Shown here piece by piece: positions 2,091 to 62,155 of a DNA stretch of 64,000 nt (position 1 is the stretch's first letter; each line of letters opens with the position of its first letter). Both the position numbers and the translations under genes were made by a program. The stretch comes from Umbilicaria muhlenbergii. Lineage: Eukaryota > Ascomycota > Lecanoromycetes > Umbilicariales > Umbilicariaceae. The notes beneath the pieces were generated by a model, which saw nothing but the letters and a program-made list of their open reading frames with translations, did no database searches and was not told where the DNA came from. The stretch lies in the NCBI GenBank assembly GCA_000611775.1, contig KK106981.1:9386497-9450496 (forward strand), written 5' to 3'.

Positions 2091-2318
2091 TGTCACAAGT
2101 TAGTGGCAATTCAGGACTTGCGTAGGGTGTGTGTTTTACAAGCGGCTTGACAGTGTTAATGAGTCACATGAAAACTCTGTGCTGCTTAATCTCACTTTCA
2201 TTCCTTAGTTATTAGTTCTATATAGTTAGGATCATATAACCTTTATACATTTATATCTCATGCTGTCACATACCTCAACTATACTTCCCTTTCTAGTAAG
2301 GGATGTTATAATCTCACA
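2091..2318 (+). repeat. 5' LTR of the gypsy chromovirus
   Basis: A 228-bp LTR (TGTCAC...CTCACA) that matches 8719-8945 apart from about two dozen differences, nearly all C/T or G/A. Confidence 0.9.
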
Positions 2319-17699: not shown

Positions 17700-20170
17700 A
17701 AACACCTCAAGATGAGCCTCCTGTGAAATGATGACAAGTTAAGAGTTGAACCTCTCTTATGAATGACTTTGGCAAACTGTTATACATTCTGAACCTTTTT
17801 CATAACTGGCACTGAACATTTCAATCTTTGTTGAAGACCCTGATCACAAATTGAACTGATCACAGATTTCAAAAGCTGTACAACACCTTTAAATCCTTTG
17901 CCTATGATGAGATACTGAAGAGAAAAGATGAGGTTTTAAAACAAGATGATTAAACAAGGCTTCTGAACATACAAGGATTCACAGAGGCAGGGAAAATTCT
18001 TCAGGCTGAAGTAAAGACTTTGTTCAAAACACTCTGCTTTGAGAAATACACTGCAGATGAGTCCACTGAGTCTCTGACTCATATGAATAAATTCATCAGC
18101 ATGTTACATACATTTGTGCCCTGTTGAATGAAGCTTCTTCATGTCATCAGTCATCCTTCAGACAAGCCACAGTCAACCCCTCTGAAAGCAAAGTATGTGA
18201 TAATATTATCAATACTTTGCTATCAAATGCATTGAAACAACTGTGACAATCTTTTAAGTCTGATGAGCCTATACCTGTTTCAAGGTGAAAGTCAACAGAG
18301 GGTGATTAATATCATGAATGAACTCAGCCTGTCAAAGTCATATAAGACAATTTGACACTGAGTGAAGGAGTTGAGCAAGCTGAGTTAAAAGAAGATCCTT
18401 GAGGTTGAAGCATCTTTCTCTGCAGTTGTGACATATGATAATTTTAAATACACAGACAGCACTTGAGGAGAATGTACAGGAGATAAATGAACCTTTCAGT
18501 TCATCATCACTGCTTTAATCTTTTCAAGGCAATGTATATCAGCTGAAAGATTATTACAGAGCATGTGAAGATCACATATTTCTTTGCAAGCAATGAATGT
18601 CTTGAAGAAATTATCACAAGATTATACATATCATCTGATATGATTCACCTCTTATTCAAACATCATGAACAACGCTAACTTAATAAACAGATTAAGAAGT
18701 ATTTCCTTGAAGTGATAATAAAGTAAATATATGCAACAAGCTCTGACACTGTCATTTCATCACAATTCTGAATGACAATCATGCTGCAGGTTGAGCTTAT
18801 CATCATGAGATAAATCACCTCATACCCTCTTCAACTGATCATGATGAATGAGAGCATCATCATCAACAATATAACAATACTGAAGAACATCTTTCTGAAT
18901 CAATTGAGTTATCAGACAGAGGATACTCAATTTTGCATCAATTTATGATTAATGTTTGAAGATCTGAAGACTGTCAAGTGAATGCACTCTGTTATCAGTA
19001 TTCAACACTCAACCGCAGAACTATCATTTGATAAGATGAGTTGATTACTTTCAGGTCTTGATCTATGACATCTTTGACTCAACATGTTACAGCTGATACA
19101 TAAAGCTCACTGAGGTGCCAGCTTTTCACTTGATCAGTCAACTTTACAATATGCAGCAGACAAATGAGATCAGTCTGAGGTCATGAAGCTGAATAAGTTT
19201 CAAGCACTTGAGGATCTTATCCTTCACAGCTACTACACTCATGTGAATGAGGTTCTTATGTTGACAATGTGACGTGATTCAGTTGCTGTTGATTCAGAGT
19301 TCAAAAGACTGACATGGCTGTGAGAGCATACCTGACTGGCATGAAATAATCAGCTGAACAGATTATATGAGGCATTTCACTCAGATCTGATGAGTATGAC
19401 TGAAAAAGACATGCTGAATGATCACTGACAGAATCATGTTCAGTTTTGTAATCATGTGAAGGTCTACATGCTTCTGTCTTACATCATTAAGCATGCAGAC
19501 ATTGAACTTCTTCACTGAGCCTTACAGAAGTGCTGCATCATGTTTTAATTCAAAACTGCCGGGAAGGTCCAGTATGCACGGGAACTTATTTAACAATTAC
19601 ACATCACTGACAGTGATGCATTCAGTGTTGAATTACAGCAGATCATTCTTGTCAACAGTCTTGTCAACCTTCATCTCAATGATCATAATCATGATCACAC
19701 ATTTGAGACAGATTGACTTCTTGAGCTTCACAACAACATTATGAAGTTCTTTTGAAGTGAATGATCATCATTTACCTTGGGAAGTGAGAAGCTCCTTGAG
19801 CAATGTGCACTGAATGAACCTTATTTTCAGAGATTAAAGCATGGCATAAAGACAACCTTCAGTTCATGACAATCAGGTGAACACTCATTCAAAAGTGCCT
19901 CTGAGGATATTCTCTTCATGGCAAGGACGCTGACACAGTCATCTTTGAGCATTAATCATGAGCACTTTACTGATTATGATGTCATAAATTTAAGAGATGA
20001 GGGCCTTCTACATTTAAATGAAAACATTGCAACATACAATGCAGAGGCTCAAAACAGCTTTGACTGAGATGATGAGAATATTAAAAGTACAGTGAAAGAG
20101 CTGTTAAATGAGTATTCAGCAACTACATCAAACTCTCTTGCAGCCTTTAAAGAATTTGAATTGATTTAAA
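17700..20170 (+). pseudogene. Degraded DUF6589-like coding region
   Basis: The plus strand keeps scattered blocks that I match, from memory of the family, to fungal DUF6589 proteins. They are a VINIMNELSLSKSY-type block (about 18.3 kb), the VTYDNFKYTD signature (about 18.42 kb), TFQFITTALIF (about 18.5 kb), SLDQSTLQYAADK (about 19.13 kb), FQALEDLILHSYYTHV (about 19.2 kb) and an ILVNSLVNLHLND block (about 19.65 kb). Order and spacing fit the family. The region is AT-rich and CpG-poor, and every frame is interrupted many times, so it is a fossil. DUF6589 function is unknown; members are often multicopy in fungal genomes, which would explain its capture by repeat-directed mutation. No terminal repeats could be assigned to it. 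Confidence 0.55.
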
Positions 20171-21150: not shown

Positions 21151-21944
21151 TAACCTTAATTCTCACCCTGTACCCAGGTGGGTACAGTAAGGCTGACAGA
21201 GTATATTGTATCACAGTTTCAGTACTTCTCAGCCATTTCAGCCTTACTGTACCCAACCCCCTGTAATTGCTTGTACTCAACCTTAACTTTTGACAGAGAT
21301 GTTGAATAAAGAAGCTTGAAAGAAGAAAGTTATAAAACAGTCTGAGTTCTTAAACATGCAGTTCTGCCTGTCTTTTTATCCTAAGAACTCAGAAAGTTAT
21401 TAATTATGTAAATAAGTCTCAAGTCTTGATGTTCTGTCTTGATTTTCAGGGTCTTCTCACTATTCAGAGTCAGAACTTCGCACTTAAAGACTTACAACAC
21501 ATAGAACTTTAACACCTCAGCAGTTATGACAAAATGTTATATGAGAGAATTGTAGAGATCAATAAACTGAGTAGTTCTTACATTGAAAGTATTATCATAT
21601 CTGAAGAACTCACTGCTGTACAAAAAAGACAAGTTTATGCTCTGAAAATATTGATGTTCTTCCCTTTATACAGTACAGCGGTCGCAAAAAAGTTGAGTAT
21701 ATACACACTTACAACACACATAAGCTTAACACACTGCATATTTAAGAACTCAGACTGCTTTATAACTTTCTTCTTTCAAGCTTCTTTATTCAACATCTCT
21801 GTCAAAAGTTAAGGTTGGGTACAAGCAATTACAGGGGGTTGAGTACAGTAAGGCTGAAATGGCTGAGAAGTACTGAAACTGTGATACAATATACTCTGTC
21901 AGCCTTACTGTACCCACCTGGGTACAGGGTGAGAATTAAGGTTA
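21151..21944. mobile_element. TA-flanked inverted-repeat element (MITE-like, Tc1/mariner-type ends)
   Basis: The two ends are 212-bp inverted repeats (21151-21362 and 21733-21944) that differ at about four positions, all C/T or G/A. Both ends finish in TA followed by ACCTTAATTCTCACCC, which fits a TA target duplication as in Tc1/mariner or pogo elements. The 370-bp centre has no coding domain that I recognise. It contains a sequence like a Tc1-type end (acagcggtcgcaaaaaagtt, about 21674). Each arm also contains a nested 75-bp hairpin bounded by GGGTACAGTAAGGCTGA. The element abuts the truncated integrase of the gypsy element on its right. Confidence 0.75.
21180..21254. repeat. 75-bp inverted repeat nested in the left arm
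   Basis: GGGTACAGTAAGGCTGA and its exact complement (17-bp arms) bound a 75-bp segment. The mirror copy lies in the right arm (about 21841-21915), where one base of one arm differs. It may be a smaller element that was duplicated with the arm. Confidence 0.8.
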
Positions 21945-24900
21945 GGATTGAATCTCATGTCATACTTTCATACATGCTGCTCAGTGGCAGATCTGTAATG
22001 AAGTTCATTGTCATCATATGTCACAGCTCAGTTGAGACTGACAATGAGTTTAATAACTTGTATGATTTGTGATGAGCTGGCTTCACCTTTTGACATTTGA
22101 CACAGTCATGACAGTAACGTCATACATCTCTGACAACATCAGGTCAGTCATAAGATCATCACATTAATTTTGTAATTCTTGATTTCCTGAAATGACCTGC
22201 AAAGACATCATCATGAAATCAACTGATTACTGCATTGTGAAGGGCAGAGTTCTGTGGAATGTAGATCTTATCATCATAATATATGACATCCTCAATTTCC
22301 TCTCAACGTTTCATTATGTCAGGGAGTATTGTCATTATATTTATCATTTCTGACTCAGTCAAGTTGTTTCTACTCTTGAGAGGGGTAGCTAATCCCTGTC
22401 ATACTCATCATACTAAACCGTCTTTCAACTGTTTGGTATGAATCATATATTCAAGTTGTTTAATAAACATTCTTGTATAAGCTGTTATCTCCTCACCTAG
22501 GAGTGAGTGAGTAGACATGAGCTGAAGCGCTTTAACAGTGTCAACAGAAGAAGTGTTATCCTTACTTTAAAAGTTAATAAAAACATGACTTGTGTCATCA
22601 TTCATAATTACAGTGCTTGCTGCATTATTCTTGATTGAGTGCTGCTCAGGTTCTGCATACTCATGCTTTTTCATTCAGTCACAGCTTGCTTCTTGAGCAT
22701 ATAAGTCACAGACTGCTGATGTTTTAGTTATATCATCAGCTTCAGTATTCATCATATTGATATATTTGTCACGGCTTGCTTCTTGAGCATGTAGGTCATG
22801 AACTGCTGATGTTTCAGTCATGTCATCAACTTCAGTATTCATCATACTGATATTATTCATTGTGACAGGTACAACATTCTTTTGTTGTAACTTCTGTCAT
22901 ACTGAGCGTCTTGACTGCAGTGTCATTGCAGCAAGCATGTATAATTTCTTCTGCACTGACTTATAATCCTTGCTTCCTAAATGGAAGGACTGTCACATTA
23001 TTTCAGTGATGATTGAGGTACTGACAGTCTTCAGCAGTTCATAATCAGGTCATCTTGACAGATCATTAATAAAGTTCTTCTTGCTCTCTTGATATGTGAC
23101 CTTAAAGTCATACTCAGTGAGCTTTTCAGCTCACTTGAGCTGCCTTCATGTGAGGTTTGAGGTAGTCATAAATCAAACAAGATTTGCATGATCAGTCAAT
23201 ATGATGATCAGGTGCCTAGCGCCTCAACAGTAATGTCATTAATGATGCATGACTTTCATGATGACAAGGAGCTCTTGCTCACCTGTATCATATCAGGTCT
23301 CAGTATTTAGCAGCTTCTTACTATAGTAAGTAATTAATAATCAGTGCAATTGATCATCAATCTTGAAGTGTTGCATCAAGATTTCATTAATTGCAAATTC
23401 AGAGGCGTCTGTTTCAACCCTCATGAGTTTGTTTTCATCAAAATAGCATAATAATGAAGCACTCATGAAGGTCTCCTTCAGAGCATTAAACACTTTCAAT
23501 GCAGCTTCTGAGAGTGAAAAAGAGGCAGGTACAACATTTTCTTGTTATAATTCTTCTTTGACTTGCAGGTTACATGCTGAATACTCTGTACTGAATCTTC
23601 ACAATGAGGTCAGATTATTCTGCTTTCTTTTAGTAGCAGTCTATTGAGACTGAAGAGGAGAGAATGATGTATCCTCAGTTTTCTTTTTATTCTTTCCTGT
23701 TTTCAAGAGATTTAACAGTGATGCTGCAATTCATGAATAATCTTTTATAAACCTTCAGAAGAAGTTGATGAAGCCTAGAAAAACCTGCAATTCATGAATG
23801 TTCTCTGAGGGTAGTCATTCTTCAACAGCGTGAATTCTTTCTGAACTCATATGTATGCCTTCAATATTAATCTTAAACCTCAGGAAGTTCACTTCTGTTG
23901 CATTAAAGAAGCATTTGCTGATCTTAAGATGAAGATCATGACATCATAATGCAGTTAATACTTGTCATACATGCTCCTCATGTTCAGATTCATATTTGCT
24001 GAAGATCAGGATATCATCTAGATAAATCACACAGATTATATCAAGGAACTTGTTAAAAGCCTTATCAATGAAGGCCTGAAACATAGCAGGAGCATTTGTG
24101 AGACTGAAAAGCATGACAAGATATTTGAACAGGCTGAATCATGTTCAGAACACTGTTTTTCACTCATCTTCACCCTTGATTTGTATTCAATTATATGCAT
24201 TCTTGCAGTTCAGCTTAGTGAACTTCTTAACTCCTTGAAGATGATTCAACATATCTGATATGAGTGATAAGGGATAATGATTTTTAATGATAATGTCATT
24301 CAACCATCTATAGTCAATGACCAGTTGCAGACTTTCATTCAATTTAAGCATAAACATGACAGGTGAAGCTGCAGATGATATTAATTTGCAGATTATGTCT
24401 GCTTTCATAACATCATCTAAATATACCTTCAGTACATTGAGCTCAGCTGAGGACATTGAGTATAACTTTTCAAATAAAGGTTGCTGCCCTGATTTCAAGT
24501 CAATGACATGATCATGTAAACTTCTCTCAGGCAGAGACTGCTTCTCAGTTGCCTGAAATATGTTCATGTACTCATGATATTCAGGTGATAATGTGTCATA
24601 CACATCACTATCTCTGTCATACTGTAATGAGTTCATCTGGAGGGTATATTTTTCCATATCAGCCACTAGGTCCGCCGGCCCTATAAAGCAGTCAGTAATG
24701 ATGAGGTTGTTCATACATAAAACATTCTTCAACGCCTTCTTTTCATCAGCAGTGAATATATGACATGTGATAATATGTTTTGGCTTTCTCCATAGGAATT
24801 TACCTGTATTGTAGTAATGATTTGAGTTTGCATGAACTAGAAATGATAGCCTGAAGACAAAAGGAGCTGATGTGTTGTCTTGTGTGATAAAGAAATGATT

Positions 24901-26936
24901 GCTATAGCAGTAAGGTTGACTGTCAGTGTCATATGTCATAATCATCAGTATGACAGACTCTGATAGCTCAATCACATTACCTCATGCATTGCCTTGAGCC
25001 TCATAGAATTCAGTCAGTAGGGACAGCTTATTGACAACATCTCATGTGATTGTATTGCCCTGACTGCAGTTGTTGATAATATATGAATATTGTGGAGATT
25101 TGCTCATCATATCACTCATTGTCATTATGTGCAGTTCCACCTCTAGTTGCCCTGATATCAGACGTGAGATATCATCAATAATCAGTAATGAGGCAAACTG
25201 AAGGTGATTCATGAGTCATTTATTCACATTAACTGCAGTGGAGACGGCTGTAGATCATTCAGTCATACAATCATTTGTTCAGTGACTGATGACTTCACAT
25301 TTAATGCAGAGACCTGTTGACCTTCATGCATTCACTTCATTCCTTGAGATGAAGTCTCCTTGTCAGTGTGAGGGGGTTGTGAATGTTCATGTCATCATTG
25401 TAGTTGCTCCCTCAGTGATTGATATATGATTGAGATTCTGGCTCTGATTGTGATCACTTTCATGATAGAAACCTCATGAGTTGTTTCCTCTTTCACAGCT
25501 GAATTGAGTGAATTGAGTGCAGGTTGTTTATTGTTCAGTGAGGGATTCTTTTCTGTTGTAGTATGACATCTGTGTCATACTTTTGTTGTTGTTGTCAGTT
25601 TTGCTTTAATGATCCTTTTTGATGTCTGAGCAGCTTTGAAACAGTTCATGATTGATGATGACATCAAGATGTGCTGAAATTTCCTGCACTGACTGTCTTG
25701 CAACCTGCATCAGATCTCAACATCATAGTTCAGTCAGAACATGATGAGAAAGCCTTGATCATCAGTGATCTCAAATGAGCATCTCATCAATTTCCTTGTG
25801 TGAAGCTGAAAGAAAGCAGTAGAGTTCTGATAATCTGTCATATCAGGAGGTGATTATATCATGATTACAGAATTCAACTGCATTAAAGGTGATGATATTT
25901 CATTCATTCATATCTTCACTGAAGGATAAGTTCTTCTTCAGCACTTTCAGGAAATTATTATAAATAATTTAAGTGTGATCATGCTGCTCCTTCTGCTTTC
26001 ATCAGTCACTCATGACTGTTTTCTCTAGGTAGGTGCCTGCTCAGATGATGAAATCTCATTTGATAAGAAATTGCTCTGACATCAGCTTCTGATTCTGATT
26101 GATTTCATTCAAGTATTCTTGAAGTTTTCATCTCATGATTTTGATGCCTCCTGCATAGAGATGAGGCTCTCATGACTTTATAAGATGTTGAAAAGGGGGA
26201 GGTGTGATGTCTGTCATAACTTGACATCATAATTCATGTGATGAACCTGTGTCATTCTCTAAGTTTGTCATAATTGAAGAATTTTCTTACAGATGTTGAT
26301 TAAGCTCCTGAAGCTCTCTTTTATTGTTCTTAAACTCAATTTCTTGTTGTATGTGTTGTAGTTGTAGTCACTGATGCTTGATGACTTTCTGATTGTGAGC
26401 AGTGACTGCTTCAAGATCATTAATGAAGTCATCAGGGTTACCTGCATTGATATGTTCATCATTGTCATTGACAATGTCAGAAGCAGGAGTGTTGACGGCT
26501 GATAATATAAACCTGTTAATTGAAGGCCCTGATTCAACTTAATTGACTGCTTCACTGACCTGATGAGATTGAAGTGTTGATGTCATCATGTCTTATTTGC
26601 TTCTGACATGACCGTTCGCCTGAAGGTACTGAGTGATCAGTATGTAAGAGGCAGAGTGTATAACAGAGTGTTGTAATGATGTTTGAACAGAATGTCATAA
26701 GCAATATAATCATGATGAGGTCAATGCAATGGTTATATGTCTTTTATTTGATGACAAAACTGATCACTGAGGAAGCAGGTTTCTGAACCTCCTTGTGAAG
26801 AGTTTTCACTTGATGTCAAGGCGCTACTCACTGAGTCATCATATAAGTAAGTTATAGTGACATACTGTTATACTGTTGTACTGTCATACTGTTGTACTGT
26901 CATACTGTCATACTACTATATATGGTGGCCCTGACA
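21945..26936 (-). mobile_element. Ty3/gypsy element, minus strand, 3'-truncated and heavily mutated
   Basis: Read on the minus strand, the 5' LTR is 26936-26657. A gag region follows (about 26.6-25.2 kb), then protease to reverse transcriptase (best preserved at 24975-24187, with gypsy-type MIELSESVILM... to VIDYRWLND), then RNase H (about 23.6-23.0 kb) and the HHCC and early core of integrase (about 22.2-21.95 kb). It stops at the edge of the inverted-repeat element at 21944, and no integrase remainder or 3' LTR is found beyond. It is a fossil with many breaks and missing its 3' end. Confidence 0.85.
26657..26936 (-). repeat. 5' LTR of the minus-strand gypsy element
   Basis: This 280-bp LTR is the sibling of the LTR fragment at 1319-1627. 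It shares long identical blocks (for example ggttatatgtcttttatt) and the ending ggtggccctgaca, with C-to-T and G-to-A changes throughout and a shorter internal tandem repeat. Confidence 0.85.
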
Positions 26937-35160: not shown

Positions 35161-35711
35161 TAGAGACGCTACAGTTGAGCAGTTCAGCAAGATTTCTTGT
35201 ACGTGATGCTGGCCCTTAGAGACAGCAGCCTCTAACAATGTGATTAGTGCACTCATCAGATGCCTCCAGCGATGCTCAGATTATGCATCCATCAGGTTAG
35301 ATTACTCTGCACGTTTTCCAGAGTGAGATAGTTCGCGCGATTATGAGAACTCGTATTCCCAAGAGGAGCGGGCTGGGGTACAGATGATGAGGTTGAGGAA
35401 GCGAACTGAGATGATGACTTGATCAAGATGTCAGAGGGGGATTGGTGAAGCAGAGATTCAAAATGTTACCCGTCATTAATGGCCGGTCCCTGTTCATCTC
35501 CCTTAGACTCCGAATCCAAATTGTAGTAGGCTATACGCGTACTGGGGCTGTCTCCATACTTAAAGTTGACAAGTGAGCTGAAAGCAGTAGTTGTACCTCC
35601 TGTCAGATCCAGTGGAAGCTCAGTGAAATTGCGGTGCCGCTTGTGAACAGTAGAGAGGGTGTGTGTAGGGTTCTCTTTCATCATGTAATGTCGCATCAGC
35701 TCTCGTCACTA
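35161..35711. other. Intergenic, remnant of the DUF7587-like gene's 3' end
   Basis: The first ~60 bp still match the family in a shifted frame. Beyond that, only a 76-codon minus-strand frame (35696-35466) is open; it has no recognisable domain and I do not call it a gene. Confidence 0.4.
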
Positions 35712-35945
35712 TATGCTTCTATCTCAATATGCTCCCGTCCCTAGAAGCTCCCGTCTCTATATGCTCCTGACCTTATATGCTCCACTCCTTATATGGTCCC
35801 GTCTCTATATTCTCTTGACCTTATATGTTCCTGTCCCTATCAACTCCCATCTCTATATGCTCCCGTTCCTATATGCTCCCGCACCTATATGCTCCCGTCC
35901 TTATATGCTCCCATCCATGTATGCACCAACTTCAATATGCTCGCT
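35712..35945. repeat. Minisatellite, about 17-bp unit (CTATATGCTCCCGTCC-like)
   Basis: About 13 imperfect head-to-tail units of the form ctatatgctcccgtcc with substitutions between units. The open frames that cross it are repetitive artefacts. Confidence 0.9.
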
Positions 35946-36095
35946 AGGAAACGCACAAAGAGCGATCCCCCCACAGGCTTCTCATATTTTCAGTTGCGAA
36001 GAAAAAGAAAGCATCCCAATCATGACGCTCAATTTGCTACTCAAACGCCAGCCAATATGCTCCCGCTCGAACAACGCATTAGTCGCGCATGACAT

Positions 36096-36623
36096 CTATG
36101 TAGCAGAGGTAATAGGAACGGGAATCGTCTTGATGAGCGTGCATGTAAGGCCCGCATAAGGAGCCCCTCCGTAGCAGTTCAAATAGTCATCCGGGGATGT
36201 GTAGTTGTTGTCGACAACGTAAACACTGCCCGCATAGGCTGTCGGTACCGCGGCCGGCGTGTCGATGAACTCGATGTCCAGCGTAAAGTTGCCGCCGAAG
36301 AATGTGTATGGGGGCGTGAAGTAGAACGTAACAGCAGAGTCGACGCAGTGGACTTGGGACAAGGCAGTGGGATAGTCGGCGGGGAGGTAAGTTGCGCCAC
36401 AGGTGGTATTGCGGAGGCTGTTCGGGTCATAGAATGTGAAGGAGAGGGTGACGTTGTCGGGGCTAGTCCCAGTTGCGCCAGGGATATTGATGGGGCCAGG
36501 GCCGTTGATGTTCATGTTGCTGAGCTGCCATGGTTGCAGAGTTGGTGTGGGAGCTGCGGAAGCGAAACCGGCAAAAGCAAGCGCGAATGGGAGAGCGGAG
36601 CTCAAGCGGGACATGAAAAGCAT
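36096..36623 (-). CDS. Small secreted protein, unknown function
   Basis: A single-exon minus-strand gene of 175 residues. The ATG at 36623 is preferred over upstream in-frame codons because it places a classical signal peptide at the N-terminus: MLFMSRLSSALPFALAFAG, then FASAAP with a good cleavage site. The mature protein is about 155 residues with four Cys (TTCGATY, VHCVDS, LNCYGG, GLTCTL), which could form two disulfides, and several N-glycosylation sequons (NVT, NTT, NFT, NYT). The composition suggests a compact beta-rich extracellular protein. Proteins of this size and layout are common in fungal secretomes and include effector candidates, but I do not recognise the family. A TATATAAA box lies 140 bp upstream. 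The gene looks intact. Confidence 0.8.
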   Translation of the reverse strand: MLFMSRLSSALPFALAFAGFASAAPTPTLQPWQLSNMNINGPGPINIPGATGTSPDNVTLSFTFYDPNSLRNTTCGATYLPADYPTALSQVHCVDSAVTFYFTPPYTFFGGNFTLDIEFIDTPAAVPTAYAGSVYVVDNNYTSPDDYLNCYGGAPYAGLTCTLIKTIPVPITSAT

Positions 36624-36762
36624 GATGGCTGCGGACTGAGATATTTGATAAAGAAGAATACGATGATGGACGGGATGGCGTGCAGGAGGATGCGGTGAGA
36701 AATTAGCTGATATCAAGATAAGATGAGGGGAGGCGAACCCATGGTGGCTGTTGGGGTGTGTG

Positions 36763-36770
36763 TTTATATA
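36763..36770 (-). promoter_or_regulatory. TATA box of the secreted-protein gene
   Basis: TATATAAA on the minus strand, 140 bp upstream of the chosen ATG at 36623. The distance fits a fungal core promoter with a roughly 100-bp 5' UTR. Confidence 0.6.
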
Positions 36771-36799
36771 GCCATCCTTTTTCCCTTGGCACAACACAG

Positions 36800-38239
36800 T
36801 CTATTACGCAGCAACGGACCTGACGCATCAGCAGGGTTCTGTCAGCTTCTATTACGTGAGATAAACACGAGTATCACTCTCCAAAAAAAAGAGGTCCATC
36901 TGAGCATACGATGCAACGGAAGCGGGATATTGACAGCCAGCGAAGAAAACAACCATCGCTGGGGTGATCGAGATAAATCGCCATGAGCGTTCCATAGGCG
37001 AGGCGCCACGTGCGGTACTGCCCCCAGTCACTTATCAACGATCAACAAACACCCCACGTTGCGAAAAAAGAAAAGCCGGTTGAAAACGAGAAAAGCATTT
37101 TAACACCGTGGTAAATAGCAACAAATAGTCCAATAAGCCATCCTAGAATACGTCAGCTTAGGCCCATGTTTTGATTCGTATGCACATCTCTTCGACCTCC
37201 TTCCACAACATTGCTGTACTGTCGGTCTGGAACTTTTCTCGATGTCACAGTCAGCTGTGACCGTGGTTCTGCGTAGTCAGCGTTGTAGGCCACGTGTTCC
37301 CTACAGTGTGCAGTCGCGGCGAATAAGCACGGCATATATTTGTGGCGGTCACGAGAATGGATACGGAGGATCCATGACGGAATGCGCAGCTCAACCATCT
37401 CAGCTGGATTGCCACTATCTCGCTTATCGCTGCCAAGCGCCAAGGATATGCGCATCAAGCCTCAGCCCTTTTCCTCAGCCCTTTTCCTCAGCCCTGCCGT
37501 GGCTTGAGCCTCGCATGCATGCATCATCGAATGGCGCTATTAGCTCGCCGCAAGTCCTATTCTTGGCCAAGCTGACAGTGCGAATGTCGTGCACTATCGT
37601 GTACGAGTGACATTTACTGCAAGGTAGAAAACGCGCTGCACATAGCACTTTCCAGGAAGGCCACTCTGTTGGGCTAGTCGGTTATCTTTGCGGTAAGATC
37701 AAGACACAAGCTGCCTTACAGCCTTGCAGCCGTTACAATGACGTTTGACGACTTTCTTCTTTCAACTTCGTCCATCGTTCAACGCAGCGGCAACTCAGTC
37801 CCTTTTGTATGCTTGCCTGGCATGCCTAATGGCCTGCTAAATGAAATGCATCAGCCAGTCCCACAAGATGAATATGTCCATGCTTTATGTATTCCTTCTG
37901 TTCATCTTACTATGGACCGACGTTGGTGCTACCTCGGATATGCGAAGAACGCCAGAGGCGGTGAGTGTAAGCAGCCATCAGCAATTCACTGCCAATTGAA
38001 AGGATGATGGCAAGACCTCTGGCATCTTATCCGCCCACTCCGAGGCTCGAGCCGGAAGGCGTTCCGTATGTAGTTCTCACAGGATTCGAGACGAAAAGTC
38101 ACTTGTCATGTGAATATGCATAGGATTACAGTCATGTCTGCCAAATACTTAGGCTCTTGTGGCTCTTGTTTCTTTCGTGTTTTCATAGCTCAAAACCCCT
38201 CATAGCAGCTCAAACCAGCTCAATTGAAGTTGTTCAAGC
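36800..38239. other. Intergenic between divergent secreted-protein and oxidase genes
   Basis: It lies between the promoters of the minus-strand gene at 36623 and the plus-strand gene at 38240. It contains a short ttttcctcagccc triplication (about 37465-37500). Open frames at 37242-37610 and 37738-38007 lack domains, introns or signal peptides and are not called. Confidence 0.45.
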
Positions 38240-41200
38240 ATGGGGTTCTTCAATACATGCTGGGATGTTCTTGCTTACCTTGGACTCTTCGGTCAATTAG
38301 ATTACACACACAATGCACTACAGATCCCACTGCAGGATCATCCCTCACTTACCAAAGTCACCAACCCACCCAATGATTACGCGATCGTTGGAAAGACTTA
38401 CCCCGATGCACCTTTCGCTTGCTCATATCCCTCTTTACAAGCCCAGGGATGGCTTTTCTGTAACGACGAGAATCAACGATCCTGCTGGCTCACCAATCCC
38501 CAGCAGATACAGCCATTGTGGTCCAAGTATGACATCAACACCGACTATGAGAAGCTCGTACCTGAGGGTATAGAGCGGGAAGTTCGTGGAAAATCCATGC
38601 TACCCTGAGCCGCGCTAACGTCGTTATAGTACTGGCTGGATGTGGAAGGCGAGATCCTATACTGCACCACGGCTCTCTAGGTCGGTGCTGACTAGGTTAG
38701 ACGTGGAGATTGCTCCTGATGGCTTTAAGAAACCACGGGGAAAGGTGTTCAACGGAATTTATCCAGGACCACTGATTGGTATGATCCCGATGGGGCCAGT
38801 TATATTAACTGACTGACGTTGTCGTGGCAGAGGCGTGCTGGGGTGATAACATCAGTGCGACCTCCTAATTCCGTTACCACGTTGTTGGCTGATTGGTATT
38901 AGCAATACACGTTACCAATCGCTTGAGCGATAACGGAACCACTGTGCACTGGCATGGCGTTCGGCAGCTTAACTCGAATGAAATGGATGGCGTCAATGGT
39001 ATCCTAATTCTTCTCCCACATGTTCTTTCGATTATATGGCTAATATATATCAGGCGTCACCCAGTGTCCTATTGCGGTCGGTTCTTATCAGACTCGGCGC
39101 TAAACGCGAGAGTCGGGTTAGCTAATTTCTAGTTATAGGAGAACTCAACGTTCACCTACAAATTTCGCGCAACTCAATACGGTCATTCTTGGTACCATAG
39201 GTAAGTCCATAAACATATCCAGTCATAATTAAAGTTGTCTAATGTGCCTGCAACCACAGTCACTACTCCTTGCAGTACCCCGACGGTGCAGCTGGTATGT
39301 TACTCTCACCCGCAAAGTTCTTCCTCGTGGCGCAAAATTAAGTCCATGTCATATAGGACCTCTACTCATTCATGGCCCTACAAGCGCGAATTACGACATT
39401 GAGTGGGATCCAATTTTTATCGGTGACTGGAGTCATAATAGTGCATTTGCCGATTTCCATAAGGAGCTAGTTCCTCCGGTCCCCACGGTGCAAAGTATCC
39501 TTTTGAACGGCACTGGTATGTACTTGATGTTTTATGTAAATAACATAAGCCAGCCCCAGTAGCTAATGAAGTTCAGGGAAGTACATTTGCGACGAGATCG
39601 AAGCCGCAAATAACTGCACAGGTGGTGGCTACACATTCAACAGAACTGTCACTCAAAAGAAACGCTATCGTACGTATTTGAGCCAAAGCTCGTCGAGCTT
39701 GGATTTTCTAAACTGTTTGTCGCCCTAGTTCTGCACTTAATCAATACATCCACGGAAACCACGTTCATTTTCTCCATCGACAACCACGAACTACAAGTCA
39801 TATCAACCGATTTCGTTCCCATCTATCCATATAATACCACATCACTACGGATTGGTATCGGTGAGTTTCAACCAACGCAGGAACATCATAAACCAGCACT
39901 AACCGCAGAGAAGGCCAGCGATACGACGTCATAGTCACAATGAATGCCCTCCAGCAATTTCCACAAACGCCCAACCAAAGCTACTGGATTCGCACAGGTA
40001 GACTCTCTCCAGAGACTACAACAAAGCTCTCTATACTAACACCAAGTAACTTAGTCCCCGCTACAGGTTGCGGAACCATCCAGGCAAATCAAAGCGACCC
40101 ACGCACAGGAATAATCCACTACAGCGGCTACCCGAAGACCACCCCGGTATCAAACGCCTCTAGCTTTTCAACTAATTGTACCGACGAACCGTACGAGAGC
40201 CTCGTACCGATTGTAAAATGGGCCGTTGGACAGCACCCTGCCAACGACCCATCGGTGGATACTTACGAAGCAGGCGTATCGCCAGCCCCAAATTCGACCT
40301 TTACAGAGCCTCATGGGAATGTCAGTCGCTGGGATCTGACTGATACACCACTCTGGTAAGCCTATCTGACCTGTCTATCTTGTCATTATAAGTAGAACTC
40401 CTGCGACTCGGACGTAACAGAGCAGCCAGAGCCTCAACTGACCGGCACCAGGCTCGACTTCTCCAACCCAACCTTCCTACACTTGGATGACACAGTCTCC
40501 TGTGTTGAATTTAGGCGCTGTCGGCTTACGGCAGTCGCTTATCGGGGTTGATATCGGTGTTGGATGGTAGGCAGGGTTTAGGGTTTTCAGGGTTCAGGCA
40601 GGCACGGCGGGGCCTTATAGTTAGCTGGTTCCCACATTGTTCTTGGCTAGTTAGTCAGTCCTTATCGATATTTACAACATCCTGGCCAGACGAATATTGC
40701 GTGATCCCTGAGGACTACGTCGACGATGTACGTACACGTATCCGCCCAGCCCATTCTCACACTTCACACTAACATCTAATCCGTAACACAGTGGGTCTAC
40801 ATAATCGTCACCGGTACGACCTCCACCTCCCAGAAACCCCCGTCCCCCATTTCCATCTCCACTGACCCCATTGAACCAGGCACGCAAATCAGCTCCCTCC
40901 CACGCGGCAAACGTGCCGTCGCCGCCGCGCATCCCATTCACTGTCAGTGGCTCCTCCCCCCCCGCCCCCAATATCCCCTCTCCTTGCATCCCCATCCCTC
41001 CACCAGACCCCCACCCCCCACTAACCCCCCCGTTCCCGCCCCTAGTACACGGCCACGACTTCGCCATCATCGGGCAAAGCCACAACCCCTACAACGAAAC
41101 CACCTCCCCGCTAACATTCAAATACGACAACCCCCCCCGACGCGACGTCGCGCTCCTCCCCGCGGGCGGGTACCTAGCCCTCGCCTTCCGCAGCGACAAC

Positions 41201-54176: not shown

Positions 54177-54213
54177 TACCTTAGCGGAAGTATATGGTGT
54201 CCTATTACTGTAA
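54177..54213 (+). repeat. Left terminal inverted repeat
   Basis: A 37-bp terminus beginning TACCTTAGCGGAAGTATA, complementary to 62119-62155 at 34 of 37 positions. Confidence 0.8.
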
Positions 54214-54486
54214 TAGTACTGTAATAAGACTATAAGTCACCTATTACTGCTTAGTTGAACTGTCTGAACCATTGCGGTAATTTCAAGTGAACAGTAAACA
54301 CTGGCGGTACGTGACTTCATCAGTTGACGTCATGACTGCCACCCGTGATATCATCATGACGTTAGATCATAAAACTACGTAATCACAAGAGCTAATGTTC
54401 ACCGCAAATAATGATAATGAAATGGTAATTCCAGGAATAAACATCCAGACTCTGAATTACAGTCCTATTATGGTAGATATGATTAT

Positions 54487-57400
54487 ACAGTAAAGCCCTA
54501 TAACAGTAAAGCCCTATAACAGTAAAGCCCTATAACAGTAAAGCCCTATAACAGTAAAGCCCTATAACAGTAAAGCCCTATAACAGTAAAGCCCTATAAC
54601 AGTAAAGCCCTATAACAGTAAAGCCCTATAACAGTAAAGCCCTATAACAGTAAAGCCCTATAACAGTAAAGCCCTATAACAGTAAAGCCCTATAACAGTA
54701 AAGCCCTATAACAGTAAAGCCCTATAACAGTAAAGCCCTATAACAGTAAAGCCCTATAACAGTAAAGCCCTATAACAGTAAAGCCCTATAACAGTAAAGC
54801 CCTATAACAGTAAAGCCCTATAACAGTAAAGCCCTATAACAGTAAAGCCCTATAACAGTAAAGCCCTATAACAGTAAAGCCCTATAACAGTAAAGCCCTA
54901 TAACAGTAAAGCCCTATAACAGTAAAGCCCTATAACAGTAAAGCCCTATAACAGTAAAGCCCTATAACAGTAAAGCCCTATAACAGTAAAGCCCTATAAC
55001 AGTAAAGCCCTATAACAGTAAAGCCCTATAACAGTAAAGCCCTATAACAGTAAAGCCCTATAACAGTAAAGCCCTATAACAGTAAAGCCCTATAACAGTA
55101 AAGCCCTATAACAGTAAAGCCCTATAACAGTAAAGCCCTATAACAGTAAAGCCCTATAACAGTAAAGCCCTATAACAGTAAAGCCCTATAACAGTAAAGC
55201 CCTATAACAGTAAAGCCCTATAACAGTAAAGCCCTATAACAGTAAAGCCCTATAACAGTAAAGCCCTATAACAGTAAAGCCCTATAACAGTAAAGCCCTA
55301 TAACAGTAAAGCCCTATAACAGTAAAGCCCTATAACAGTAAAGCCCTATAACAGTAAAGCCCTATAACAGTAAAGCCCTATAACAGTAAAGCCCTATAAC
55401 AGTAAAGCCCTATAACAGTAAAGCCCTATAACAGTAAAGCCCTATAACAGTAAAGCCCTATAACAGTAAAGCCCTATAACAGTAAAGCCCTATAACAGTA
55501 AAGCCCTATAACAGTAAAGCCCTATAACAGTAAAGCCCTATAACAGTAAAGCCCTATAACAGTAAAGCCCTATAACAGTAAAGCCCTATAACAGTAAAGC
55601 CCTATAACAGTAAAGCCCTATAACAGTAAAGCCCTATAACAGTAAAGCCCTATAACAGTAAAGCCCTATAACAGTAAAGCCCTATAACAGTAAAGCCCTA
55701 TAACAGTAAAGCCCTATAACAGTAAAGCCCTATAACAGTAAAGCCCTATAACAGTAAAGCCCTATAACAGTAAAGCCCTATAACAGTAAAGCCCTATAAC
55801 AGTAAAGCCCTATAACAGTAAAGCCCTATAACAGTAAAGCCCTATAACAGTAAAGCCCTATAACAGTAAAGCCCTATAACAGTAAAGCCCTATAACAGTA
55901 AAGCCCTATAACAGTAAAGCCCTATAACAGTAAAGCCCTATAACAGTAAAGCCCTATAACAGTAAAGCCCTATAACAGTAAAGCCCTATAACAGTAAAGC
56001 CCTATAACAGTAAAGCCCTATAACAGTAAAGCCCTATAACAGTAAAGCCCTATAACAGTAAAGCCCTATAACAGTAAAGCCCTATAACAGTAAAGCCCTA
56101 TAACAGTAAAGCCCTATAACAGTAAAGCCCTATAACAGTAAAGCCCTATAACAGTAAAGCCCTATAACAGTAAAGCCCTATAACAGTAAAGCCCTATAAC
56201 AGTAAAGCCCTATAACAGTAAAGCCCTATAACAGTAAAGCCCTATAACAGTAAAGCCCTATAACAGTAAAGCCCTATAACAGTAAAGCCCTATAACAGTA
56301 AAGCCCTATAACAGTAAAGCCCTATAACAGTAAAGCCCTATAACAGTAAAGCCCTATAACAGTAAAGCCCTATAACAGTAAAGCCCTATAACAGTAAAGC
56401 CCTATAACAGTAAAGCCCTATAACAGTAAAGCCCTATAACAGTAAAGCCCTATAACAGTAAAGCCCTATAACAGTAAAGCCCTATAACAGTAAAGCCCTA
56501 TAACAGTAAAGCCCTATAACAGTAAAGCCCTATAACAGTAAAGCCCTATAACAGTAAAGCCCTATAACAGTAAAGCCCTATAACAGTAAAGCCCTATAAC
56601 AGTAAAGCCCTATAACAGTAAAGCCCTATAACAGTAAAGCCCTATAACAGTAAAGCCCTATAACAGTAAAGCCCTATAACAGTAAAGCCCTATAACAGTA
56701 AAGCCCTATAACAGTAAAGCCCTATAACAGTAAAGCCCTATAACAGTAAAGCCCTATAACAGTAAAGCCCTATAACAGTAAAGCCCTATAACAGTAAAGC
56801 CCTATAACAGTAAAGCCCTATAACAGTAAAGCCCTATAACAGTAAAGCCCTATAACAGTAAAGCCCTATAACAGTAAAGCCCTATAACAGTAAAGCCCTA
56901 TAACAGTAAAGCCCTATAACAGTAAAGCCCTATAACAGTAAAGCCCTATAACAGTAAAGCCCTATAACAGTAAAGCCCTATAACAGTAAAGCCCTATAAC
57001 AGTAAAGCCCTATAACAGTAAAGCCCTATAACAGTAAAGCCCTATAACAGTAAAGCCCTATAACAGTAAAGCCCTATAACAGTAAAGCCCTATAACAGTA
57101 AAGCCCTATAACAGTAAAGCCCTATAACAGTAAAGCCCTATAACAGTAAAGCCCTATAACAGTAAAGCCCTATAACAGTAAAGCCCTATAACAGTAAAGC
57201 CCTATAACAGTAAAGCCCTATAACAGTAAAGCCCTATAACAGTAAAGCCCTATAACAGTAAAGCCCTATAACAGTAAAGCCCTATAACAGTAAAGCCCTA
57301 TAACAGTAAAGCCCTATAACAGTAAAGCCCTATAACAGTAAAGCCCTATAACAGTAAAGCCCTATAACAGTAAAGCCCTATAACAGTAAAGCCCTATAAC

Positions 57401-57688
57401 AGTAAAGCCCTATAACAGTAAAGCCCTATAACAGTAAAGCCCTATAACAGTAAAGCCCTATAACAGTAAAGCCCTATAACAGTAAAGCCCTATAACAGTA
57501 AAGCCCTATAACAGTAAAGCCCTATAACAGTAAAGCCCTATAACAGTAAAGCCCTATAACAGTAAAGCCCTATAACAGTAAAGCCCTATAACAGTAAAGC
57601 CCTATAACAGTAAAGCCCTATAACAGTAAAGCCCTATAACAGTAAAGCCCTATAACAGTAAAGCCCTATAACAGTAAAGCCCTATAAC
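54487..57688. repeat. 16-bp satellite array, about 200 copies
   Basis: The unit CCCTATAACAGTAAAG is repeated without visible variation over 3202 bp. It matches CCCTATTACGGTAAAG, found in the right terminus of the surrounding element (complement of about 62115-62130), at 14 of 16 positions. The array has no open frame worth calling. Confidence 0.98.
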
Positions 57689-57775
57689 GAAGCCGTTTTG
57701 GAAGCCGTTTTTCGAGGCCGTTTTTCAAGGCCGTTTTGGAAGCCGTTTTGGAAGCTGCTTTGAAAGCTGTTTGGA
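57689..57775. repeat. GAAGCCGTTTTG tandem repeat
   Basis: About six imperfect 12-15 bp units directly follow the satellite. Later units show G-to-A and C-to-T drift (for example gctgttt for gccgttt). Confidence 0.85.
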
Positions 57776-57798
57776 TGAGTCATATACGTGAACTTGAA

Positions 57799-57928
57799 CT
57801 GGGTTACCCAGTGAAAAACCCAACCCAAACCCAAAAAAACCCAACCCAGTGTGACCCAACCCAAAAAAAACCCAACCCAGTCTGGGTTGGGTCACAATAG
57901 TCAAAACCCAACCCAAACCCAACCCATG
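57799..57928. repeat. CCCAA/CCCAAA low-complexity tract with short palindrome
   Basis: Runs of aacccaacccaaa, including the palindrome ACCCAACCCAG-t-CTGGGTTGGGT (about 57871-57893). It is telomere-like in composition but is interspersed and internal, so it is not a telomere. Confidence 0.85.
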
Positions 57929-60900
57929 GTGCAGCGTAGAAATTGACATGTTGAGACATGAAATCAGAGTTTTCCTGCTGTTGCAGCATATCTCTCAGGT
58001 ATGCTAGAGTAAATGCACAGATGTATGTGTTAATGCTGTTGATCTGAAGTAGTTAACCTGCATCAAGATGATAAAGTGCCTGTAAAGTGTTGATGACGTC
58101 ACTGAAATTGCTGCCATGAGGACTGAGAGTAAGGGGCAGGACATTTGATCAACAGGTATGCTCATGAAAACTGAATGTCACAATGATGAGGTAAATTCTC
58201 ATAAGAGTGCAGTACATGTTCTGATAAAGACTGAATTCATCAATAAATGTAAGAAGAGGGAGAGACATCACCTGATGTTGTGTTCAAATCTGATTGAAGT
58301 TCTCAATGAAGTGCTGCTTGATGAACTCAGTCAACTCAAGCTCTCTCTGAGGTGAATGACATTGATTCAATGACTGTACACTTTGCTTTGAGGTGTTGTA
58401 TATCTGATGAACAAACAGCTGTTCAGCTCATGAGATCTGCAGCTGTGATTGAACCTGACTTTGAAATGAATAATCAAGCAGAACATTCAGCTGAAATGAC
58501 ATAATAAATGATTCTGAGAGAAAGGAGAAGATATCTTCAACAAGGAGAAGCTCAGTCAGTAACATCAAAGAGAAGAGAGTAACAGGTAACAAGAATGTAG
58601 ATTGAAGCTTCACACAAGTAACAATCTTTTGAATCTTCAGGTTGATTTCTCTGAACTGACTTTCTTGAGGGCGTGACATGTCTGAATGATGTTTTAGATC
58701 AACAGTGATAACTTGATCAAGGTGAGTGCTGCAGTTAATAAAAGCATGACATTGACAGAGCTGTTGAGAACAGGTGTAGTACAAGAAGTCTGAAAGAAAG
58801 ATGAGGAACTCATCTGCATAATGTGTGTACTGATCAGACATGATACAAAGAGAAGAAGCTCAACTGTTGAAATGTTATATTTAAGAGGGAGAATCAATGA
58901 ACTTCATCATGTCAACATGCATCTTGCAGACAATCTCAGATGAAGACAGGAATACCATGAAGAGATGCTTTGAATCAAAGAAATAAAGATACTCAGAAGG
59001 GACAGACATCACTGTAAAAGCCTTTAAACCTGCTCTTAAAGATGATAGCTTGTCAATAAGAAGTGAAATTGACTTCTTGTGTAGCTGCAGCAGCAGCATT
59101 TATGCTTAAGCTCATTTTTTCAAGGTTCTGACTGACTCTGATAACTTTAATATCTTTGAATATGACTTCAACATCCTCAGGATATCCTGCAAGGCATTAT
59201 AATGAGGTTTGAACAAACTGATGTCCTCACTTCATAGACTCATTGCCAGTATGAATTTGCTTGTAGCAGTGAATCATTTGTGTGAGATCAGCTCTGAAGT
59301 ATCTTCAAGGAAGGTGAAGAAAGATCAATGAGAAGAGGATATCATTGTAGGTACATGCTTCAGCTCTGTTGATGTGACAGGTTCTTCATCTTGATTATCT
59401 TCATCAAACTTCACAATTGACTCTGAACTCTCTGTATTTTGATACTGCATCAATTCCTGAAGATTCTGTAGTTCATTCAAGGTAGATTCAAGTGAGTCAT
59501 CATCATCAGCTGCAGTGTACTCTTGAAGTCTTCAAGAGAGCTCAGATGTGTTTTAACATCAAGTTGTCAGCTTCCTGCTAACACAATAAATTTTCAAAGT
59601 AGAAGAATGCATCAGATTGCTGACAAAGGAATGATTCTCTCACTCATCATTGAAGTTAAAATCATTAAACTCAGGATCATTGTCATCTGAAGCATCTGAT
59701 ATTCTTCTTTTCTTGATTGACAGTTCTGTTGAAGCCTGCAAATTTAACATAACTTGCTGTGCAGTGAGGGCAGTCAACCTCAAGTGTGCATTATGATCAA
59801 TGTGACGTGGCCTGAGCATTGTGACAGAAAAGGGAGACAGATAGCAAACAAGATTCAAAGAGATACACTGAATACAGTAATGTTATCACTGAGGAGACAG
59901 AGGGGACTGATGAGACTTGATGAAAGCTTTTACAAATGACAGAGTCAAGAGTTTAAAGATTTGAAAGAAAAAAGTGTGAAGTATAAGACTACAAACCCTG
60001 CAACTGCAGGCAAGATAGAGAATTCACAATAAATGATTACAGACAACCTTGAACTTCACTTGTACATCAAGAAGAATTTAAAATGTGAAGATAAAGCTTG
60101 TGATTTAATGTATCTTTGTTATCAAAGTGAGCAGCAGTTACCCTGACTCTCCTCTCTCTTCTCAGATCACAGTACCACAAATCTTGATGTACTCAAAGAT
60201 ATAAAAGCATTTTCAACATTGTGCATTGCTGACATAGTCCTGTAATGATAATCTTGACCTAATCAATGACCTTGATGCACTCAGTGCATATTGATGTGAG
60301 GTGATGAAGGCTGTATCACAACTGTGAGAAGTGCTGTTCTGAAAGGCTAGGTTGAGTTGATCTGACACATTGAGCAGGTGAGTATATAGTACATCAATGT
60401 AAACAAGTGTCACACAAGCTGAATAAAAAGTTCATTGTGATATTATATCTTCATTGAGGTAAGGTATCTGGCATATAATGAAAATAAGAAGTCAGAGAAG
60501 CCTCAGGGTATCAGTCAATCAACATCATCAGTTAAATAAAGATGATATAAGCAAAAAAAGAAGTTAAGTACCTTCAGCTGAAGCACTCTTTGCAGGTGAT
60601 GACTCAAGAGATTTAAATCAATCTCAGCCTGACTGATCAGGAAGCTTTGATGACTTTCTCTGCTTACAGGTACACTTCATAATCTCTTGAAAGTTGAATT
60701 TATTAACATCCTTGAAGTCAGGCATAATAAGTAGGAGGTCATAAAAGCTGAGAAGCTTGTTTTAAGCATCAGTGGCCTGCCCCTCAGCAGCATTCACAGC
60801 GTTTATTCATAACTTGATCTCAACCACAAGATTGACATATATAACTTATCAAGTTCAGTCAGCACAGTCATTGATGTGAGTATATATTAATATCTTACCT

Positions 60901-61740
60901 TTCATATAGTACAACCTCAGCGCAGAAGACTTGTCAACATTTAAATAATCATTCATATAAAATCATATGTAGAGAAAATTCATGACATTGAACATTAACT
61001 TAAAAAAAGTTTGAAGGAGGCTGTCACTGATATAATCTTTCATGATAAGGTTCTGCTTCAGTAGCTTCATGATATGCTCTTATACATTAATCAGTATATT
61101 GCACTCCCCTGCTCCTCAGTGACCTGAAGAGTCAAAGGCCAAAGTGAAATTTTTAACCTTCATCAATGTGATCTTCTCTCAGTGATCAAAGAAAAAAAGA
61201 GCGTTTAAATAGTAGAAAAGGAATCAGGCTAACCTTCATATGACTCAGAACTTTATTCTTGTAGGCCTTCATGTTGTTGAAGATTCTGATACAGTCAATG
61301 ATATACTTGAAGGAATCAGCACTGAGATCAGCATCATAAACATCATGTAGAAGTTTGAGTCATCAGAAGTTAAAGAAGAACAGAAACACCTGTCATCAAA
61401 TTAACTTATTCAGCAGGCGTAGATCCTGATCATCATCATCAGTGATGATCTCAGCGTTCATAGCATTGCCCCTTTTCCGCTTGCCTCAAGTACGCGGCGC
61501 ATTGCGGACTTCAGCCAGTTTTGCGCGGTCAGAGATGATATGAGGGAAGGTGAGGAAGAGCGTGCTGAACTGTTATCATTAAATCTAGCTTATTCCACAT
61601 GTATCTTGGGGAAGAGGATGTTTATACAGAAGGGCTGATGAGATCAATGTTCTCATTATCAAGGGGGAGGGGCCAGGTTAAATCATTCATAGCAGAGCAG
61701 GTATACAAGTAGGAAGTATATAATAATAGATAAAAATGAT
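57929..61740 (-). pseudogene. Degraded coding interior of the TIR element, unknown protein(s)
   Basis: The minus strand retains protein-like blocks among many breaks. Examples are AEIITDDDDQDLRLLNKLI (about 61.45 kb), AFTVMSVPSEYLYFFDSKHL (about 58.97 kb), CKMHVDMMKFIDSPS (about 58.9 kb), and IQKIVTCVKLQSTFLLPVTL with LLLVEDIFSFL (about 58.55 kb). The last blocks resemble, from memory, a multicopy ascomycete protein family, but I cannot name it and see no catalytic motif of a known transposase, polymerase or integrase. The region is CpG-poor and clearly ancient. At least two separate reading units are possible. Confidence 0.4.
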
Positions 61741-61795
61741 GTTGCTGTCACTGTTGTTGTTGTTGCCGCTGCTGCTGTTGCTGCTGGCGGATGTT
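61741..61795. repeat. TTG/CTG microsatellite
   Basis: A run of tgttgttgttgccgctgctgctgttgctgctgg that still contains a CpG. It lies at the edge where the mutated interior gives way to the better-preserved right terminus. Confidence 0.85.
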
Positions 61796-61822
61796 GAAGT
61801 TCAGTGAGGTTGAACTTGTAGA

Positions 61823-61860
61823 ACCTTCCCGCCTCAATTACTTAATTGAGGCGGGAAGGT
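61823..61860. repeat. Perfect palindrome, 18-bp arms, 2-bp spacer
   Basis: ACCTTCCCGCCTCAATTA is followed by CT and then by its exact complement. It lies at the junction between the AT-rich interior and the CpG-containing right subterminal region of the TIR element. Confidence 0.97.
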
Positions 61861-62118
61861 CATTTCTGATGTTATCCCGCTTTCAACGTAACTGCCAAAT
61901 TGCCATCTTTCTACCGTAACATCTTCATTGACGTCAGTATTACCGCAACATTTCCATGACGTCGATATATTGATAAACAGCCTGTTGAAATTACGGTCAT
62001 GTGACGGTGACGACAAATGGACGGGCTGTTCCAATCTATCATTACTACCAGATACGGTAAGCAGTCACGCAACTGCGTTTACCGTCACACTACTGTAATT
62101 CAAGTTCTAACCAACCCT

Positions 62119-62155
62119 TTACCGTAATAGGGCACCTTATACTTCCGCTAAGGTA
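62119..62155 (-). repeat. Right terminal inverted repeat
   Basis: Complement of the left terminus. On the minus strand it reads TACCTTAGCGGAAGTATA, then AGGTGCCCTATTACGGTAA. The latter part contains the motif from which the satellite unit may derive. Confidence 0.8.

Follow-up and report, generated by a model that had tools for sequence, protein, structure and literature searches.

Our analysis of a 64,000-nucleotide stretch of the Umbilicaria muhlenbergii genome (hereafter the window; C1:9386497-9450496) indicates that an 8-kb segment of it is very probably a class II cut-and-paste transposon, now dead, that duplicates a TA target and would have been moved by a CACTA/EnSpm-like (CMCT) DDE transposase. 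The evidence comes from paired inverted termini, a second copy with the same ends on another contig, related paired-end elements, unfilled target sites of one of these relatives and the motifs of a broken protein.

Termini and a second copy

The segment is bounded by terminal inverted repeats (TIRs) of 37 nucleotides that agree at 34 of 37 positions, start with TACCTTA and are separated by 7,905 nucleotides, giving an element of 7,979 bp with TA at both outer ends. The pairing is far above chance, since a match of at least 34/37 has an estimated probability of about 4e-17 per placement and about 2e-9 across all placements in 9.5 kb. In the TIRs, CCTTANSGG, TAWRR and ACNGTAA follow one another at fixed spacing. 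The left 310 bp contain five ACNGTAA words and the right 355 bp four; counts elsewhere in the window are 1-3 per listed 500-bp bin, except in the bins at 57,500 (11, the end of a tandem array) and 62,000 (five, the right end). Matching 37-bp termini about 8 kb apart with TA, subterminal ACGGTAA-like motifs on both sides, and a satellite and a palindrome between them had all been claimed in a preliminary description of this DNA, and all are present (Table 1).

The preliminary description had also proposed searching the same genome for the termini, and this search of the assembly (34.79 Mb, seven contigs) revealed a second full copy. The terminal 18-mer TACCTTAGCGGAAGTATA has four mismatch-free occurrences, which form two inward-facing pairs, one delimiting the window element and the other a 39,210-bp copy on another contig (C4:746647-785856; the C4 copy). 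The terminal regions of the two are 97% (left 310 bp) and 98% (right 276 bp) identical, and the window element aligns collinearly to positions 1-310, 2349-2550, 18457-18944 and 35689-39210 of the C4 copy. This bears on the two outcomes that the preliminary description had set against its own proposal, namely that no other copy with paired termini exists, or that the termini belong to two separate short miniature inverted-repeat transposable elements (MITEs) flanking unrelated repeats, so that the 8 kb is no unit. The interior does contain foreign pieces (the satellite and a 250-bp dispersed repeat) and short elements with similar ends do exist (583-911 bp), but the C4 copy has both ends with the coding interior between them in the same order, which refutes the two-MITE explanation, and the exact 18-mer occurs only as these two pairs. 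We consider that explanation scarcely credible.

The difference in size between the copies is due to two insertions in the C4 copy. Its last two alignment gaps are filled by stretches of 15.9 and 16.7 kb with TG..CA ends and direct terminal repeats (210 bp at 92% and 327 bp at 88% identity), flanked by the 5-bp duplications GCAGG/GCAAG and TAACA/TAACA, respectively; the window keeps each 5-mer single, as an unoccupied site. By their terminal structure these stretches are long terminal repeat (LTR) retrotransposon-like insertions, and further repeated pieces are common to both. The 39.2 kb between the same ends might otherwise suggest that the window copy arose by deletion from a giant cargo element, but the LTR-type structure and the unoccupied 5-mers refute this for 32.7 kb. 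We therefore rejected the giant-element reading of the C4 copy and regard it as very unlikely; it stands only for the real loss of about 2 kb at the first alignment gap (C4-copy positions ~396-2348), which is missing from the window copy and is replaced there by the array and the 250-bp repeat. By arithmetic, the C4 copy has a core of 6,559 bp, and the earlier description of the element as large holds only in part, since beyond this core of about 6.6 kb the bulk of both copies consists of insertions or arrays. Elsewhere in the window, two stretches of CpG-poor, AT-rich DNA (21944-26936 and 2165-7415) resemble these LTR-type insertions at 80-90% identity.

Related elements and TA target duplication

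Relatives were sought with a 35-place TIR pattern (TA left out, up to three mismatches) and with the reversed pattern as control. The pattern gave 68 matches, nine of them without mismatch, versus 45 for the reversed pattern, so many of the matches are chance; 18 places were inspected. Relatives with paired TACCTTA termini and TA on both sides are present, in keeping with the DNA transposon family that had been suggested. One of them, C4:4494322-4502587 (L038/L039), is an 8,266-bp CpG-poor island with the ends TACCTTAAGGG.. and TACCTTACGGG.. and with ACNGTAA at the same offset as in the window element. The further paired-end elements range from 583 to 8,266 bp, and TA is found at all 33 ends inspected (window copy, C4 copy, L038/L039 and L040-L057).

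For one relative, L043, the TA is a target duplication. L043 lies within a palindromic repeat as TTTAA-TA[element]TA-GGTACC, and three unfilled paralogous places (L071, L072 and one beside L043) carry a single TA before GGTACC, which is the kind of support, TA duplications at copies with the same ends, that the preliminary description had looked for. A longer target duplication (GAGCT at the C4 copy, TGCCGC at L038/L039) was rejected because the longest shared words of 12 elements vary in length and place and because L043 shows TA only. L048 lies within a dispersed repeat with nine unfilled copies, of which seven have one TA, one has none and one has TA-TCA-TA. This dispersed repeat, seen at L048 and at L062-L070, serves as an insertion target and some of its copies hold short TA-flanked gains; we take it, by eye and from its box A, to resemble the head of a tRNA-derived short interspersed element (SINE).

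Coding interior and class of the transposase

The claim that the interior is degraded coding DNA is borne out by broken frames, and the coding part proved longer than the window shows, the C-terminal portion being retained by the C4 copy alone. Across the 502 codons of 59453-57948 (minus strand) there are 13 stops (8 TGA and 5 TAA). This main frame has 13 genome matches: one is the window copy itself, three are pieces of the C4 copy and the rest lie at nine other loci. One of these loci belongs to the 8,266-bp element, whose TIRs have the layout described above. We aligned nine and five sequences of the main protein. The first putative catalytic site, FI[DN]xF, has D in four of nine, the second acidic site is DM or DI followed by QQ in all nine sequences that cover it, and a C(2)C lies between the second D and the E in the four examined, read through stops (C4 copy, L027, L028 and L019). 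The block N.H...H......EY..N.NVLI is invariant in five of five, and all five have the candidate catalytic E (HY..EY).

A second broken gene, open reading frame 1 (ORF1), has seven genome matches, two in the window and C4 copies and the other five spread over three further loci. At those three loci (L033-L037) it is divergent from the transposase match, with ~1.9, 4.2 and 16.2 kb between the matches, unlike in the window and C4 copies, where the two genes are on the same strand. Plant En/Spm elements have a two-gene organisation, as does the window element.

By eye, the order of motifs in the main protein resembles the layout D..D..C(2)C..H(3-4)H..E that is given for transposases of the CMCT clade (PMC12730594), and a D..D..C(2)C..E layout is the point of likeness to EnSpm/CACTA, Mirage, Chapaev and Plavaka as described in that source. 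A CACTA/EnSpm-like transposase is thus the most likely assignment on these motifs. As described there, EnSpm families make 3-bp duplications and Plavaka 2-3 bp, the latter with TGT or CATCA ends, whereas ESTA, from Pucciniales, combines TA duplication and a CMCT-type transposase with a TET/JBP gene. The window family resembles ESTA in its TA duplication and, as judged by eye, in its transposase, and differs in that no TET/JBP gene was detected here by Pfam.

Several results weigh against this assignment or against the transposon explanation as a whole. Pfam searches of the six frames of 57940-61860 and of nine frames of three other stretches gave only chance-level matches below the cut-offs, in line with the earlier statement that the interior matches no recognised transposase, and profile searches of PDB returned no transposase (a designed binder at E 0.87; the PHF20 Tudor domain at E 0.0087 and 0.13). 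The class is read from motifs by eye because no transposase in either collection matched, the sequences compared being degraded. AlphaFold2, run on a single broken protein, gave a mean predicted local distance difference test score (pLDDT) of 36, an unusable fold. In five of the nine sequences N takes the place of the first putative catalytic D, as a G-to-A change would produce, although this is no proof, and H(3-4)H after C(2)C fits only two of four (HEQFH in the C4 copy and HQTLH in L027, but not L028 or L019). The termini are CC..GG inside the TA, whereas CA..TG is described for most CMCT members (PMC12730594). The filled site of L048, TA[element]TA-GG-TA, is four bases (GGTA) longer than a simple TA duplication would make it, and a genome search with the joined flanks of 12 elements (40 of 46 candidates scored) found no unoccupied site of the window or C4 copy.

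A Tc1/mariner-type or PIF/Harbinger-type (PHIS) element, either of which can duplicate TA, would account for the target site, and Tc1/mariner excision leaves a three-base footprint between TAs, a further likeness if the possible footprints described below are real. No such transposase family was matched in the six interior frames or the nine frames of the three other stretches, however, the protein is long with a C(2)C beyond the second acidic site, and the window element is longer than Tc1/mariner and has a second gene. We hold this alternative to be improbable and retain the CACTA/EnSpm-like reading. As a lead only, the N-terminal part of the main protein weakly matches the PHF20 Tudor domain. 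Relatives were also sought in viral contigs and genome contigs, both non-fungal collections, and none was found there.

Decay of the two copies

Over 4,504 aligned positions the window and C4 copies differ by 475 transitions and four transversions, the T (or A) state being in the C4 copy at 377 of the differing positions and in the window copy at 98. CpG is nearly absent inside both copies and kept in the outer ~300 bp at both ends of each; in the L038/L039 element it is retained at the left end only. With its nearly transition-only divergence, the decay of both copies resembles that of repeat-induced point mutation (RIP), with the edges spared.

Table 1. Features of the window element and paired-end or single-end relatives elsewhere in the assembly.
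Feature	Window position	Strand	Length	Remarks
Left TIR	54177..54213	+	37 bp	TA = first two bases (target duplication); same end at C4:785856
Left terminal region	54177..54486	+		ACNGTAA words; 97% identity to C4 copy; CpG kept
16-bp tandem array	54487..57688	+		200.1 perfect copies; unit contains ACAGTAA
Dispersed repeat	57689..57938	+	250 bp	Separate family; 233 genome matches; not in C4 copy
Broken transposase-like frame	57948..59543	-		C-terminal part missing here, present in C4 copy
GCAGG, single	58136..58140	.		Unoccupied site of first LTR-type insertion of C4 copy
TAACA, single	58619..58623	.		Unoccupied site of second LTR-type insertion of C4 copy
Second gene (ORF1), broken	60531..61509	-		Split into three or more pieces; related loci elsewhere, three
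Perfect palindrome	61823..61860	.		18-bp arms, 2-bp loop
Right terminal region	61880..62155	+		98% identity to C4 copy; CpG kept
Right TIR	62119..62155	-	37 bp	TA = last two bases
Paired-end L040			1,712 bp	
Paired-end L041			1,782 bp	
Paired-end L042/L043/L044			2,963/1,820/1,353 bp	One family; shared parts 96-99% identical
Paired-end L045/L046/L047/L048			700/583/699/911 bp	One family
Single ends L049-L057				L049-L051 are copies of a single duplicated place and have a flank in common with L038

Possible excision scars

Within the 250-bp flanks of the 12 elements, words of the type TA-AGG-TA or TA-CCT-TA number 15 and the next class three; ten are at the C4 copy, two each at L041 and L046, one at L048 and none at the other eight elements. 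These words may be excision scars. An alternative of somewhat less than even probability is that they belong to a (CCTTA)n microsatellite, or are ordinary words (AAG|GTA also resembles a splice donor), and that the elements just happen to be close to them. Some are tandem and in one orientation (C4 right flank), eight of the 12 elements have none within 250 bp while the C4 copy alone has ten of the 15, and TA-CCT-TA is not in excess in the rest of the window (at most 4 of 154 TA-NNN-TA words). Against the microsatellite, one run is of mixed orientation (TA-CCT-TA-AGG-TA-CCT-TA-CCT-TA), and 31 bp upstream of the L048 site there is a CCTTA gain at a TA; eight of the nine paralogous repeats lack this gain and the remaining one has another. 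Genome-wide, TACCTTA (5,221) is 2.3 times as frequent as the composition-matched TACTCTA (2,253), but word frequencies vary widely (3,310 and 10,212 for the unrelated reversed words), so one control word is no proof. In the CpG-normal stretches of a 225-kb sample of DNA that is biased to element flanks, TA-CAG-TA is likewise over-represented (38, 3.0-fold), perhaps as scars of another TA-targeting family.

Arrays and the 250-bp repeat

The 16-bp array starts at +311 in both copies, with five recognisable units in the C4 copy and 200 perfect ones in the window, so that the window satellite appears as an expansion of the five-unit array seen in the C4 copy; the bulk of the satellite and the block at 57689-57938 are not in the C4 copy. 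Two hundred perfect 16-mers in a RIP-marked element would stem from very recent expansion or else be an artefact of the assembly. L048 contains 27.8 copies of an 18-mer, of which L047 has one exact unit and L045 and L046 have none. The 250-bp repeat has at least 40 near-full copies elsewhere and occurs within L042 too; its counts are lower bounds, and the first 40 matches cover at least 191 of 250 bases. It has AACCC-rich tandem and palindromic parts and often adjoins tandem GCCGTTTTTCAAG-like units, of which L042 has 39 copies.

Proposed history and implications

Taken together, our data suggest that a DDE transposase of the CMCT kind would have recognised the 37-bp TIRs and probably also bound the subterminal ACNGTAA words; it would then have excised the element and inserted it at a TA, duplicating that dinucleotide. 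Excision may leave TA-CCT-TA or TA-AGG-TA, that is, the three terminal bases and the second TA. C-to-T mutation of the RIP type would later have inactivated both copies; in addition, the C4 copy would have taken in its two LTR-type insertions, and the window copy would have lost its C-terminal coding part and gained the long 16-bp array and the 250-bp dispersed repeat. This order of late events in both copies is one that we infer.

More tentatively, and with considerable doubt, these elements could represent an undescribed CACTA/EnSpm-like lineage with CCTTA termini and TA targets, in which a single TIR grammar unites autonomous relics with short non-autonomous families. Its jumping would have left scars on the order of thousands (about 3,000 more than one matched control word shows in 34.8 Mb), and it would tend to amplify short subterminal units into arrays (16 bp x 200 in the window, 18 bp x 28 in L048). 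The family would form a new lineage or else branch off close to ESTA, with which it was compared by description only. Five terminal words sought in the open-access literature gave, among the matches listed, papers unrelated by title, Repbase and subscription journals being outside the scope of that search. If true, this reading would add a TA-duplicating, CACTA-like lineage with a terminal sequence of its own and would link full-length relics to short non-autonomous families. It would also provide a datable record of their activity, in the form of RIP marks, LTR-type insertions with unoccupied sister sites and possible scars that can be counted.

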